Positions 34,124-47,755 of a DNA stretch of 64,000 nt are shown piece by piece. The stretch is taken from positions 1-64,000 of the forward strand of contig CAMYKU010000005.1 in the NCBI GenBank assembly GCA_947259105.1, written 5' to 3'. The notes below the pieces were generated by a model that had not been told where the DNA came from, did not search any database, and worked only from the letters and a program-made list of their open reading frames with translations. This DNA is from an uncultured Alphaproteobacteria bacterium. GTDB taxonomy: Bacteria; Pseudomonadota; Alphaproteobacteria; UBA8366; JADFVY01. Every line of letters begins with the position of its first letter. Position 1 is the stretch's first letter. Both the position numbers and the translations under genes were made by a program.

Positions 34124-35551
34124 ATGAGTAGCGGTACCATATTACTGGTCGAAGACACGCCCTCGCTGGCGCGCCTGTACCAACAGTACCTCGACGGCGA
34201 AGACGCGGACGTGATTGCGGTTGGCACCGGGAAGGAGGCGCTGAAAGCGTTGAGCGGGGAAGCGCCGTCGGTGGTGCTGCTCGACCTCAGGCTGCCGGAC
34301 ATGGACGGGCTGGACATCCTGAAGGAAATGCAGGCGCGCGAGTTGCCGAGCGAAGTGGTGGTGATTACGGCGCACGGCTCGATCAACGTCGCGGTCGAGG
34401 CCATGCGTGCGGGCGCATACGATTTCCTGGTCAAGCCGTTCAACGCGGAACGGCTGCTCGTTACCGTGCGCAACGCCCTGAAACACGGGTCGCTGTCGGC
34501 GATCGTCAAGAAAATCACCGATGTCTCGCGCGACAGCTATTTCGGGTTCATCGGCTCGTCGCTGGCGATGCAGGCGGTGTACCGCACCGTCGATGCCGCG
34601 GCGACATCGAAAGCGACGGTGTTCATCACCGGCGAATCGGGCACCGGCAAGGAAGTGGCGGCCGAGGCAATTCACAGGCAGAGCCCCCGCAAGAACGGGC
34701 CCTTCGTTGCGATCAATTGCGGCGCAATCCCCAAGGATTTGATGGAATCAGAGATCTTCGGCCATGTGAAAGGCGCCTTTACCGGCGCGCATGTGGAACG
34801 CGACGGCGCGGCGTCCCGGGCCTCCGGCGGCACTCTGTTTCTGGATGAAATCTGCGAGATGGACCTGGCCCTGCAGACCAAATTGCTGCGATTCATCCAG
34901 ACCGGCACCTTCCAGAAGGTCGGCGGCTCGAAGACCGAGAAGGTCGATGTGCGTTTCGTCTGCGCCACCAACCGGGACCCGCTGGCCGAGGTCGAGGCCG
35001 GGAATTTCCGTGAGGATCTGTATTACCGGCTGCATGTCATCCCGCTGCACCTTCCGGCACTGCACGACCGCAACGGCGACGTTATCGAGATCGCGCGGCA
35101 TTTCCTCGCTGCGTACGCAGCGGAGGAAGGCAAGCTGTTCGCCAGCTTCAGCCCGGAGGCGGAGCAGATCATCGGGCAATTCAGTTGGCCGGGCAACATC
35201 CGGCAGGTCCAGAACGTTATCCGGAACGTCGTGGTGCTGAACGACGGCGACGTCGTCACGGCCGATATGCTGCCGCCGCCGTTGAACCAGCCGGCATCGG
35301 CCGCCAAGCCCGGGTCGACTGCCGAGCGGCAACCCGAACAGCCCGAGGACGCGGAAAGGGGCGCCGGCACAGCCGTGGCCGGCGGCGACGGCGACATCGT
35401 ACCGTTGTGGAAGGTGGAGAAGGATGTGATCGAGCGCGCCATCGAGAGCTGTGACGGAAATATCCCGAAAGCGGCGGCCAAGCTGGGGATTTCGCCTTCG
35501 ACCATTTACCGCAAAAAGTTGAGCTGGGACGCCGAGGACGTCGGGTCTTAA
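34124..35551 (+). CDS. Sigma-54-dependent response regulator (NtrC family, LuxO-like)
   Basis: 475 aa. A receiver domain (about 5-120) with phospho-acceptor Asp54 (VLLDLRLPDMDG) is followed by an AAA+ domain (about 140-370) with Walker A GESGTGKE and the sigma-54 contact loop GAFTGA, then a Fis-type HTH at the C-terminus (about 430-470, AAAKLGISPSTIYRK). It activates sigma-54 promoters when phosphorylated. It converges on a REC-HPt protein whose HPt resembles LuxU, mirroring the LuxU-LuxO phosphorelay pair of vibrios. No ordinary sensor kinase is adjacent. Confidence 0.9.
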   Translation: MSSGTILLVEDTPSLARLYQQYLDGEDADVIAVGTGKEALKALSGEAPSVVLLDLRLPDMDGLDILKEMQARELPSEVVVITAHGSINVAVEAMRAGAYDFLVKPFNAERLLVTVRNALKHGSLSAIVKKITDVSRDSYFGFIGSSLAMQAVYRTVDAAATSKATVFITGESGTGKEVAAEAIHRQSPRKNGPFVAINCGAIPKDLMESEIFGHVKGAFTGAHVERDGAASRASGGTLFLDEICEMDLALQTKLLRFIQTGTFQKVGGSKTEKVDVRFVCATNRDPLAEVEAGNFREDLYYRLHVIPLHLPALHDRNGDVIEIARHFLAAYAAEEGKLFASFSPEAEQIIGQFSWPGNIRQVQNVIRNVVVLNDGDVVTADMLPPPLNQPASAAKPGSTAERQPEQPEDAERGAGTAVAGGDGDIVPLWKVEKDVIERAIESCDGNIPKAAAKLGISPSTIYRKKLSWDAEDVGS

Positions 35552-43629: not shown

Positions 43630-43783
43630 CACCGGCAGGCGCCGGGATGCAAGCCCGTATCGTACCGCCATGGCGACGGCCGGCCAATGCGCTCAAACCG
43701 ATCGCCCGTTCGGATCTGGTGTGGCCGATTAAGGAAGTCGTTAAGATTCGGGTATAATCTGCATGGTTCTGGAAGCAAGAACC

Positions 43784-46006
43784 ATGACCGCACTCGAAGC
43801 GAACCAGCAGCACGACCTGTGGGTCGACCGGTGCCGACAGCAACTCGAACGAGGCGCGGCCGGCAATGCGCTTGCCGCCTGGATGCAGTCCGAAGGCGTC
43901 AGCGCCGACATGGCTGCAGCCATCCTGCAGGCTGCACGGGGCGGACCGGTGGCGGAGTCCGGACAACCGGTCCACGCGGACCCCGCACCCGCCGCGTCGC
44001 CCGAAACCACTGTTCAGGAAACCACGGCGCCGGAAACGACGGTGCCGGAACCAACGGGATCGGAAACGACGGTGCCGGACACGACGGCCCCGCAGGGGGA
44101 GACCGCGCAGTCCCCCGGCGCGGACACTGCCGTCCCGAACCTGGATGGCGCGTCCGCGGAACACGCGGCGGCTACCACGCCGGCACACACCCCCTGCACG
44201 CCCGACAACGCAGCCGCCGTATTCGCCAAGGCGTTCGGCAAGTCGGGCAAGACGGCCCCTGGCGAGGCAACGCCGGCGCCGCCAGATCCCAGCCAACCGG
44301 ATGCCGTACCGGCCGTTGAACCGGCACCGGCCGCGACGGTCCCGTCCCCGGCTGCGCCGCAACCGCCAGCGCAGGCCGTGTTGCCGCAGGAGCCGCCAAC
44401 AGTGCCGCAGGATCTTGGCGTACATCCGGAGTCCCCGGCGCCAAGCGACCCGGCGCCGGCCACCGCGGTGCCGGTCACGCCGCCGCTGCCGCAGACCGTT
44501 GTGCCGCAGGAACACTCGGTCAACCCGGCGCCGTCGACCGTGCCTCCGAATCCGTTTGGCACGCCGCGCCCTCCAATCGTATTTCAACCTGTCCCGGCGC
44601 CGGCCGAGGACATTCCGCGGCAGGATGACGCACTATCGGAATCGCCCCACCAGGAGACTCCTGACATTACAGAGACGAGGGACGGTGCGCGCGAGGACGG
44701 AGAGCCGCCGCCAGGCGACGATACCGATGGAACAACTCCGGACGAGTCGGGCACTTTCATAACGGAGCCCGACCCGGACTCCAGTTCGGATGTCGATCAT
44801 CGGCCGGATGCCGGCCCGATACCAGGCGATGATGCCGATGAAGCGCTGCTCGAGGGGTCAGACACCGCCGTGACGGAGCCCGACCCGGAGCCCGGCATGG
44901 ACGCAGACACTCCCCCGGATGACGGTGCGCCGGCCGATTTGGCGCACGAACGTCATCCCGAGGATCCTGAAATATCGGCGCCAGACGAACAGGACGCCCC
45001 GGCGGACGATCTGGAGCCGTCCGGCGGCGACGACGCTGACGAATTCGATGAAGACGAGCCCGCAGATGCCCATGCTGCTGCGTTCGACGCGATCGAACAT
45101 CCGTTAGCAATGGAGCCTCCCGCCGAGGCGCCGGCGCCGGACTCGTCCCTGGACGAACCGCAGCCGGACGACGCATCCTCCGGCGTGGCCGAGCCCGATG
45201 AACCATATCGATTCGAGGACTCGCTGGAGGAAGCCGCATCGCGCATGGGGATGGACCTGCGTCACGACGCGCGCCAGACGCCGGCCGAATCATACGATGA
45301 TTTCATCGACCAGGAACAACAGCGCGTTCCGGAGCCGTCAAACGGATCCGCCGACGAATTCGGTGTTGAACCAATCGGTGAAACCGGTGCTGGACCGGAT
45401 GACGAACCCCACCGGACCGCGCAGGAAGCTGCCGAACGACGCACGTTCGGCCGGCGCGACAATAGCGGTCCGGCGTCCGACGACGCCACCGGTGAGCCTG
45501 CTGAGGCGATGCCCGACGCGGGCGACCAGGAACCCAGCCCCCGGCCGTCGACTCCGGCGGAAGGTGCCGAAGGGGAACTGGCCCGCACCATCCGCGAAGC
45601 TGAACGGGGCACCGACGGCGAGCCCGACCCCGCGCCCCAGTGGCAGGAGCCGAAAACCGAAGAGGAACTGGCTGCCGCGGCGAAGAAACTGGGGATCAGC
45701 TTCCGGGACGAACCCGAAGCCGGCCAGTCGCCCGCACCCGATGCGCAGGAAGACGAGATGAAGCGCGCAGCGCGTGAACTGGGAATCAGCTTTCGGGACG
45801 AACCCGCCGGCCCGGACCCTGCGGCCCCGGACGATGCCATCGCCAAGGCGGCGCAGGAACTGGGGATCAGCTTTCGCGATGCCTATGAGCCCGAGGCGAA
45901 ACAGAAGAGCCTTCTGGCACGGTTCTGGCCCGTCATTCTGGTGATGGTGCTTGCCGCGATCGCCATGCCAATTATCGGGGCATATTTGATGTTCGCCGGA
46001 AACTAG
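43784..46006 (+). CDS. Acidic, low-complexity repeat protein with a C-terminal membrane anchor, function unknown
   Basis: About 740 aa. A short N-terminal folded segment (LWVDRCRQQLERGAAGNALAAWMQSEGVSADMAAAILQ-like region, first ~50 residues) is followed by a very long stretch rich in Pro, Thr, Glu and Asp, including ETTVPETT-type repeats. Near the C-terminus are four copies of an about 25-residue motif: LEEAASRMGMDLRHD, then LAAAAKKLGISFRDE, MKRAARELGISFRDE and IAKAAQELGISFRDA. A single TM helix (FWPVILVMVLAAIAMPIIGAY) ends the protein with only a few residues beyond, so it looks tail-anchored with the bulk in the cytoplasm. I recognise no family. Confidence 0.75.
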   Translation: MTALEANQQHDLWVDRCRQQLERGAAGNALAAWMQSEGVSADMAAAILQAARGGPVAESGQPVHADPAPAASPETTVQETTAPETTVPEPTGSETTVPDTTAPQGETAQSPGADTAVPNLDGASAEHAAATTPAHTPCTPDNAAAVFAKAFGKSGKTAPGEATPAPPDPSQPDAVPAVEPAPAATVPSPAAPQPPAQAVLPQEPPTVPQDLGVHPESPAPSDPAPATAVPVTPPLPQTVVPQEHSVNPAPSTVPPNPFGTPRPPIVFQPVPAPAEDIPRQDDALSESPHQETPDITETRDGAREDGEPPPGDDTDGTTPDESGTFITEPDPDSSSDVDHRPDAGPIPGDDADEALLEGSDTAVTEPDPEPGMDADTPPDDGAPADLAHERHPEDPEISAPDEQDAPADDLEPSGGDDADEFDEDEPADAHAAAFDAIEHPLAMEPPAEAPAPDSSLDEPQPDDASSGVAEPDEPYRFEDSLEEAASRMGMDLRHDARQTPAESYDDFIDQEQQRVPEPSNGSADEFGVEPIGETGAGPDDEPHRTAQEAAERRTFGRRDNSGPASDDATGEPAEAMPDAGDQEPSPRPSTPAEGAEGELARTIREAERGTDGEPDPAPQWQEPKTEEELAAAAKKLGISFRDEPEAGQSPAPDAQEDEMKRAARELGISFRDEPAGPDPAAPDDAIAKAAQELGISFRDAYEPEAKQKSLLARFWPVILVMVLAAIAMPIIGAYLMFAGN

Positions 46007-46680: not shown

Positions 46681-47058
46681 ATGGCAGTCATGGAATGGAA
46701 AGATTCGTTCAGCGTCGGCAACGAGAAGATGGATGCCCAGCACAAGGGGTTGATCGACCTGGTCAATCTGCTGGATGACGAGGACATGACAGGTATCGCG
46801 CTTGAGCGGCTGAAGAGCTATGTCCAGGAGCATTTCCGCGACGAGGAGAGAATGCTGGAGGCGGCCGGTTACCCCGGTCTCGACGACCAGAAGACGCAGC
46901 ACCAGGAATTCGAGGACTGGCTGGCGCAGACCCACCAGAGCTACGTAACCGGCAGCGGCCCCAAGACCCTGAGGGAAGACGTGCAGGACTACCTGAAGGG
47001 CTGGCTGACCGAGCACATCCTGGATTCGGACAAGGCCTACTCCTCCTGGATCAAATAA
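46681..47058 (+). CDS. Bacteriohemerythrin
   Basis: 125 aa, the standard single-domain length. The diiron ligands are in place: His in DAQHKGLIDL, His and Glu in HFRDEERML, two His in QKTQHQEFE, and His/Asp in WLTEHILDSD. It reversibly binds dioxygen and serves in oxygen sensing, storage or delivery. No chemoreceptor domain is fused to it, although a chemoreceptor gene lies at 58300. Confidence 0.93.
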   Translation: MAVMEWKDSFSVGNEKMDAQHKGLIDLVNLLDDEDMTGIALERLKSYVQEHFRDEERMLEAAGYPGLDDQKTQHQEFEDWLAQTHQSYVTGSGPKTLREDVQDYLKGWLTEHILDSDKAYSSWIK

Positions 47059-47126: not shown

Positions 47127-47651
47127 CTATTGCGGCCGCACTTCGAACAGGCAGTGGTCCTGCCCGTCCTCGGCCGCACACCGCGCCTCCATGCAGGTCG
47201 TCAAATAGCTGCGGCCCATGGTATCGCCGACCCAATTCGTGGCGGCGGCGAATGCGCCGTCGAACATATAGCAGACGCGACGGCCCGACTTCCCGAAACC
47301 GGCGGCGATGGCGGAATGGTCGAGGCGCGCCCGGGCGGTGCCGGCCTCCCAATCCGCCTCGACGAGCGAGAACCGGCCCCAGCCGCGCTTCGACAGCCGG
47401 TCCAGGTAATGGCGAAAGACCGCCGGCCCCGAGATTTCGTGCAGCGCCGCCTGCGTGCCGCACCAGTCGTAGGTCGCCTCGTAGGCCGCCTTGTAGAGCC
47501 GTTGGCGGTACTCCTCTGCGCCGATCGCATCCTCGACCGCTCTTTGAATGTTCACAAAGAACGCACGCGGCGTATAGATCATCGGGACGCCGTCGGTTGT
47601 CCAGTGGCCGGTGGCGGAATCGACCTCGATCGGGACGTCCGGTGCGGTCAT
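47127..47651 (-). CDS. V4R-like (4-vinyl-reductase-fold) protein, function unknown
   Basis: 174 aa from ATG 47651, preceded by AAGGAG at 6 nt; an upstream ATG at 47666 includes that site and is less likely. The layout of an N-terminal helical part, a central WCGTQAALHEISGPAVF, and a C-terminal SYLTTCMEARCAAEDGQDHCLFEV resembles small-ligand V4R domains, whose conserved C-terminal cysteines bind metal or ligand. I recall related proteins beside methylated-glycine catabolism genes, but cannot confirm that here. Divergent from the exported hydratase-like gene. Confidence 0.6.
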   Translation of the reverse strand: MTAPDVPIEVDSATGHWTTDGVPMIYTPRAFFVNIQRAVEDAIGAEEYRQRLYKAAYEATYDWCGTQAALHEISGPAVFRHYLDRLSKRGWGRFSLVEADWEAGTARARLDHSAIAAGFGKSGRRVCYMFDGAFAAATNWVGDTMGRSYLTTCMEARCAAEDGQDHCLFEVRPQ

Positions 47652-47755
47652 TGCAGTCTCCTTCATGGCGTGGTTCGCCTCGCTGGACGATGCTGGGCAG
47701 ATACGACCACGCTGGTCCATACTATCGTAGCGGCACCACGCAAACAGGGGAATCG

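Follow-up and report, generated by a model that had tools for sequence, protein, structure and literature searches.

An open reading frame in the window (the whole stretch of 64,000 nucleotides that was analysed, from an uncultured alphaproteobacterium) encodes a real, conserved and scaffold-like protein that is restricted to one lineage among the genomes searched. Judged from its sequence, the protein is tail-anchored and carries a private, threefold repeated motif that probably serves in docking; neighbouring bacteriohemerythrins are a weak candidate for the partner. From the N- to the C-terminus it consists of a helical domain, a Pro-rich stretch, an acidic stretch, the three repeats, the basic segment KQKSLLAR and one transmembrane (TM) helix (Table 1). 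The reading that we favour, and hold to be moderately probable, is that of a tail-anchored, multivalent inner-membrane scaffold that docks a partner via its repeats. As the original prediction had it, the protein matches no known family: searches of Pfam, NCBIfam and PDB sequences returned only chance matches and a fragment of HTH_8 that is spurious (see below), and Foldseek with the full-length model gave no match.

Support for the ATG at 43784 as the start comes from the sister genome G001, the closest relative: its DNA aligns with the window through the start region but lacks the alternative ATG at 43763. Directly 5′ of this start lies TTAA-N8-TTAA followed by TATAAT (43729–43758), and the TTAA pair is kept in G001; in genus g3 the conserved block upstream is another one, containing TTAAC and GCGATA.

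Table 1 Features of the scaffold gene, its surroundings and its N-domain paralogues. Positions are those of the window except where a locus handle precedes them.
Feature	Residues (aa)	Position	Strand	Evidence
Whole gene, orphan tail-anchored scaffold-like protein	740 in total	43784..46006	+	ORF; start alignment with G001; pN/pS <1 in frame
N-terminal three-helix domain	1–52	43784..43939	+	AlphaFold; homologues in G001, G004, G005, G006
Disordered linker, Pro-rich then acidic	55–620	43946..45643	+	Composition, pLDDT, fast evolution
Conserved linker motif TPDNAAAVFAKAFGK	139–153	44198..44242	+	AAVFAxAFGK also in G004, G005, G006
Conserved linker motif PPIVFQPVP	263–271	44570..44596	+	LV[FY]EP[LI]P in G004, G005, G006
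Degenerate repeat-like segment SLEEAASRMGMDLRHD	480–495	45221..45268	+	Window only
Repeat R1 EELAAAAKKLGISFRDE	627–643	45662..45712	+	
Repeat R2 DEMKRAARELGISFRDE	657–673	45752..45802	+	
Repeat R3 DAIAKAAQELGISFRDA	684–700	45833..45883	+	
C-terminal TM helix, after basic KQKSLLAR	715–739	45926..46000	+	Hydropathy, AlphaFold helix
Small downstream protein, C-terminal hydrophobic helix		46132..46587	+	54% identical orthologue, same place in G001
Bacteriohemerythrin, candidate functional neighbour		46681..47058	+	NF033749, 1.4e-30
Small N-domain paralogues, genus g3, just upstream of scaffold gene		L018 11247-11660; L046 748-1212; L020 6846-7193		

Predicted disordered linker and membrane anchor

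The linker that separates the N-terminal domain from the repeats comprises ~565 residues with a net charge of −104. It evolves fast, and nearly all of it is at pLDDT <50 in the AlphaFold2 model, which was built from a four-sequence alignment. The original prediction of about 500 disordered and strongly acidic residues is upheld for the disorder throughout and for the acidity mainly in aa 290–620, where Asp and Glu account for 25–34% of residues; aa 55–290 are Pro/Ala/Thr-rich (24% Pro) and only mildly acidic. The window and genus g3 share AAVFAxAFGK and LV[FY]EP[LI]P in this region, and an FGRR motif is common to the window, G001 and G002. Conserved short motifs are therefore found inside otherwise fast-evolving disorder, as in a multi-motif disordered membrane scaffold.

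The single TM helix foreseen at the very end of the protein is borne out both by hydropathy, with a best 19-residue Kyte-Doolittle mean of 2.6, and by a confident helix in the AlphaFold2 model. Because basic residues precede this helix and no other hydrophobic segment is present, we infer that all but the C-terminal helix is cytoplasmic.

Three conserved repeats precede the anchor

The word LGISFRD occurs exactly three times in the protein, at aa 636, 666 and 693; among 2,000 composition shuffles, one contained a word of at least 7 residues three or more times. A fourth repeat had been counted earlier, but the segment concerned, MGMDLRHD (aa 488–495), is degenerate and sits ~140 residues further upstream, and the orthologues contain nothing that corresponds to it, so that the count is three. 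The motif consensus spans ~15 residues, (E/D)-x-A-x-x-A-x-x-L-G-I-S-F-R-(D/E), and reads as an Ala-rich amphipathic helix (E/D-x-A-x-x-A-x-x-L), a Gly stop and then I-S-F-R-D/E. The AlphaFold model places helices at 626–635, 654–665 and 682–692, each of which stops at a repeat's LG, with moderate confidence (pLDDT ~60–70). Across the 18 copies from the orthologues described below, A, L, F and R are invariant, and G and I are each present in 17 of 18. Profile searches of the family genomes, by which the privacy of the motif was established, found its three copies in the scaffold to be the only strong matches per genome, and LGISFRD was not found in the literature searched.

For the pair G000–G001, pN/pS is 0.12 in the repeats, and other pairs mostly give 0.12–0.33 with a maximum of 0.48, against 0.58–0.97 in the linkers between repeats and 0.31–0.95 in the tail and TM helix; synonymous differences are high and near saturation in distant pairs, so that these values are indicative rather than exact, although the contrast holds for each pair. 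By this measure purifying selection acts strongly on the repeat codons but not on the linkers between them, and the repeats are well conserved, as had been anticipated, rather than freely varying between relatives. Because repeat number and position are shared, and because, between species, copies at the same position resemble each other slightly more than copies at different positions do (58% versus 52%), the triplication is probably older than the split of the family, whose orthologues span three genera. The same observations bear on whether the gene is a low-complexity by-product, either a spurious ORF or a recent, functionless duplication of repeats. The ORF is indeed high in GC, rich in Ala, Pro and Asp, and overlapped by ORFs on the opposite strand. 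Nevertheless, the sequence is conserved in three genera, synonymous changes dominate in the repeats, and repeat number and positions are the same across genera, which puts the triplication before the genera arose. These points effectively refute a by-product, whose probability we take to be negligible.

The repeats could also be degenerate DNA-binding helix-turn-helix (HTH) units of the Fis type, since the C-terminal region on its own scores above the cut-off of Pfam HTH_8 (PF02954), with 30.9 versus 22 bits. The best match, however, covers only 13 of the 42 profile positions. A complete HTH takes ~40 residues, and the true HTH_8 of the window, in the sigma-54 regulator at 34124–35551, covers profile positions 2–38. 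Moreover, the repeats are followed by Pro/Gly-rich linkers, and the model has no recognition helix. The match at 45662–46003 arises because the helix-Gly turn AAxxLGIS, the sole likeness, also occurs in Fis-type HTH proteins; the repeats have no second helix. A canonical domain is refuted by the partial 13-residue match and the missing second helix, and HTH units of any degenerate kind are extremely improbable. For annotation, HTH_8 exceeding its gathering score on repeats without any HTH is a false positive that calls for caution.

Alternatively, the repeats could bind no protein and instead rest as amphipathic helices on the surface of the membrane. In favour of this alternative, all three fall within ~90 residues before the TM helix, the AlphaFold model shows them as helices, and the motif helices of PEX5 offer an example of such short elements in contact with membranes (PMC8086558). 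The repeat helices are nonetheless Ala-rich and neutral or acidic (mean net charge −0.6), with a mean hydrophobicity of 0.22 and a modest mean moment of 0.32, and Phe-Arg conserved so strictly would point to a specific binding site more than to contact with lipids. Low hydrophobicity and charge make binding to the membrane surface less likely, and we give it a small probability. The conservation of the repeats, the helix ending at each LG and the basic residues before the TM helix instead support docking helices for a cytoplasmic partner, as first proposed; we infer both the docking and the avidity that three copies would confer.

Orthologues define a constant core

The family of the window was represented by seven genomes, G000 (the window) to G006. 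Orthologues are present in six of them (G000, G001, G002, G004, G005 and G006; records include CP070634.1, from Rhodospirillales MAG bin96, CAMYNJ010000035.1 and JAOUMF010000025.1), a sample of six only, from metagenome-derived or draft genomes of which some are fragmented. Searches of the family genomes detected no copy in G003, which is 96% complete; the gene may be dispensable there, lost, or in an assembly gap. All six orthologues have exactly three repeats, 24–31 residues apart and followed by the TM helix, and the last repeat ends 41–51 residues before the C-terminus.

A search for the repeat pattern across Alphaproteobacteria had been proposed as a check, with a lack of repeats in the homologues as a refutation. 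Every orthologue with a readable C-terminus in fact has them, and orthologues were found within the family of the window only. Neither a repeat profile nor an 18-copy single-motif profile found anything real in 385 genomes across the class. The sole class-wide match of the repeat profile, L048, is antisense to a purH-like gene and was rejected. A scan of ~85,000 species with degenerate patterns, too narrow to catch divergent forms like the one in G002, found none beyond the family, and a search of viral contigs for distant relatives found none that were real.

The version in G002 has 215 aa and consists of a short basic/Pro N-terminus, the three repeats and the TM helix, without the N-terminal domain and the long linker. 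Its orthology is supported by its position near a DAO/GCV_T-domain dehydrogenase and a conserved protein of unknown function, as in genus g3. Since this version keeps the repeats and the TM helix, these form the constant core, and the N-terminal domain and giant linker are accessory. The draft genome G005 (6% contamination) has two different N-terminal gene copies (L019 3283-3900 and L020 7444-8151), representing either a paralogue or a contaminant contig.

The N-terminal domain is predicted to be a compact three-helix fold

A confident three-helix domain at the N-terminus had been overlooked in the original prediction. It is compact over aa 3–51, with helices at 3–22, 27–36 and 41–51 and a pLDDT mostly >90 in the AlphaFold2 model, and its sequence is 75–98% identical within a genus and 26–36% between genera. 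The domain has no Pfam match, and its profile found no real match in 289 genomes across the class; matches at L050 and L051 were examined and dismissed. Directly upstream of the scaffold gene, genus g3 has a small separate gene that encodes a paralogue of the domain, and one of the three paralogues, searched against Pfam, gave no match. With Foldseek, the top matches of the domain model are PEX14 N-domains, at a probability of 0.91, a sub-threshold E of at least 0.29 and a TM-score of ~0.5 by target.

Because the PEX14 N-domain binds short helices, this faint resemblance raises the idea that the N-terminal domain binds the repeats, so that the protein would assemble head to tail into a membrane-associated network. 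The fold match is below significance, however, and the Pex14_N profile (PF04695) misses the domain, with no match at the scaffold locus at E up to 10. G002 has the repeats without any homologue of the domain anywhere in its genome at E up to 0.05, and between genera it is the domains that diverge, not the repeats. We therefore rate such self-assembly as very unlikely. For the docking scaffold, the lack of an N-domain homologue in G002 means that the repeats need not bind this domain, and since the motif evolves more slowly than the domain, the partner is probably a conserved protein of the window's family.

Neighbouring genes and the hemerythrin candidate

The small protein encoded just downstream has no Pfam match, and its gene is possibly an operon partner, co-transcribed with the scaffold gene. 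Beyond it lies a bacteriohemerythrin in which Gln replaces the first His of the H-x3-H pair (DDQKTQH); the adjacent downstream hemerythrins of G004–G006 keep this His (e.g. VAHKQQH). A protein with DUF5943 and a weak V4R domain is encoded on the minus strand at 47127–47720, and a similar one adjoins the locus in G001.

One more specific version of the scaffold model would have the repeats or N-terminal domain recruit neighbouring bacteriohemerythrins to the inner membrane, giving a tethered platform for oxygen storage or delivery. Hemerythrin genes adjoin the scaffold gene on both sides in G004, where these two are the only hemerythrin-domain matches of the genome, and ~80–115 nt downstream on the same strand in G005 and G006; the window has one downstream. 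G003, without the scaffold gene, has a single HHE match, of a longer type. In G001 and G002, by contrast, the scaffold gene has no hemerythrin neighbour even though the genomes encode several hemerythrins, and the repeats, the most conserved part of the protein, persist without one. In addition, the hemerythrin of the window is 45–49% identical to the adjacent ones of the other genus, about the same as between paralogues. Hemerythrins are thus a weak candidate for the partner, and we regard their recruitment as unlikely.

Comparison with known systems

In its logic the protein may be likened to SpmX, PopZ and the RNase E tail, but it lacks those of their defining sequence features that were checked and is a member of no family tested. 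SpmX, a polar scaffold of Caulobacter, has a folded N-domain, a negatively charged Pro-rich middle and a C-terminal membrane tether (PMC5347347). The likeness, which is one of architecture only, extends to the folded N-terminal domain, the acidic Pro-rich disordered middle and the C-terminal TM anchor of our protein. The N-domain of SpmX, however, is lysozyme-like rather than a ~50-aa three-helix fold without a Pfam match, and SpmX has two TM segments rather than one and no LGISFRD repeats described. PopZ has no TM anchor, and its family model is not among the Pfam or NCBIfam matches of the whole scaffold protein. PopZ serves as a disordered hub for several recruited partners and is acidic and Pro-rich (cited in PMC5347347), and our protein is likewise acidic, Pro-rich and disordered. 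The C-terminal scaffold of RNase E is likewise long, disordered and associated with the membrane, and its short motifs for partner binding are in part duplicated (PMC11964227). Our protein differs in that it has no RNase domain, and the REER repeats of RNase E bind RNA and vary in number, whereas the scaffold motif is fixed at three copies and is not Arg-rich. PEX14 and PEX5 are comparable in having a small helical domain and, along a disordered chain, several short helical motifs; the fold similarity of the N-terminal domain is weak, and the motif is not WxxxF.

Proposed mechanism and implications

In the docking scaffold that we favour, the predicted C-terminal helix would sit in the inner membrane and display near it three copies of the motif, each a short helix, a Gly stop and an invariant Phe-Arg. 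Through these, the scaffold would engage as many as three molecules of a single conserved partner, or else an oligomer at three sites, and the triple motif would give avidity and membrane recruitment, with repeats and TM helix as the minimal core. The long acidic/Pro linker would serve as a flexible spacer bearing further short motifs, and the N-terminal domain would add a second, more lineage-specific contact. A bolder version, to which we assign a low probability, is an undescribed membrane-organising system in which the private triple helix-Gly-Phe-Arg motif gathers a partner, possibly hemerythrins, and a PEX14-shaped, peptide-binding N-terminal domain cross-links the scaffold.

The protein is a clean example of how a short linear motif can be private and strictly conserved although the disordered bacterial protein around it evolves fast, and the natural 215-aa version of G002 is a ready minimal construct. 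If its partner were found, this would show how an uncultured lineage organises its inner-membrane proteins.
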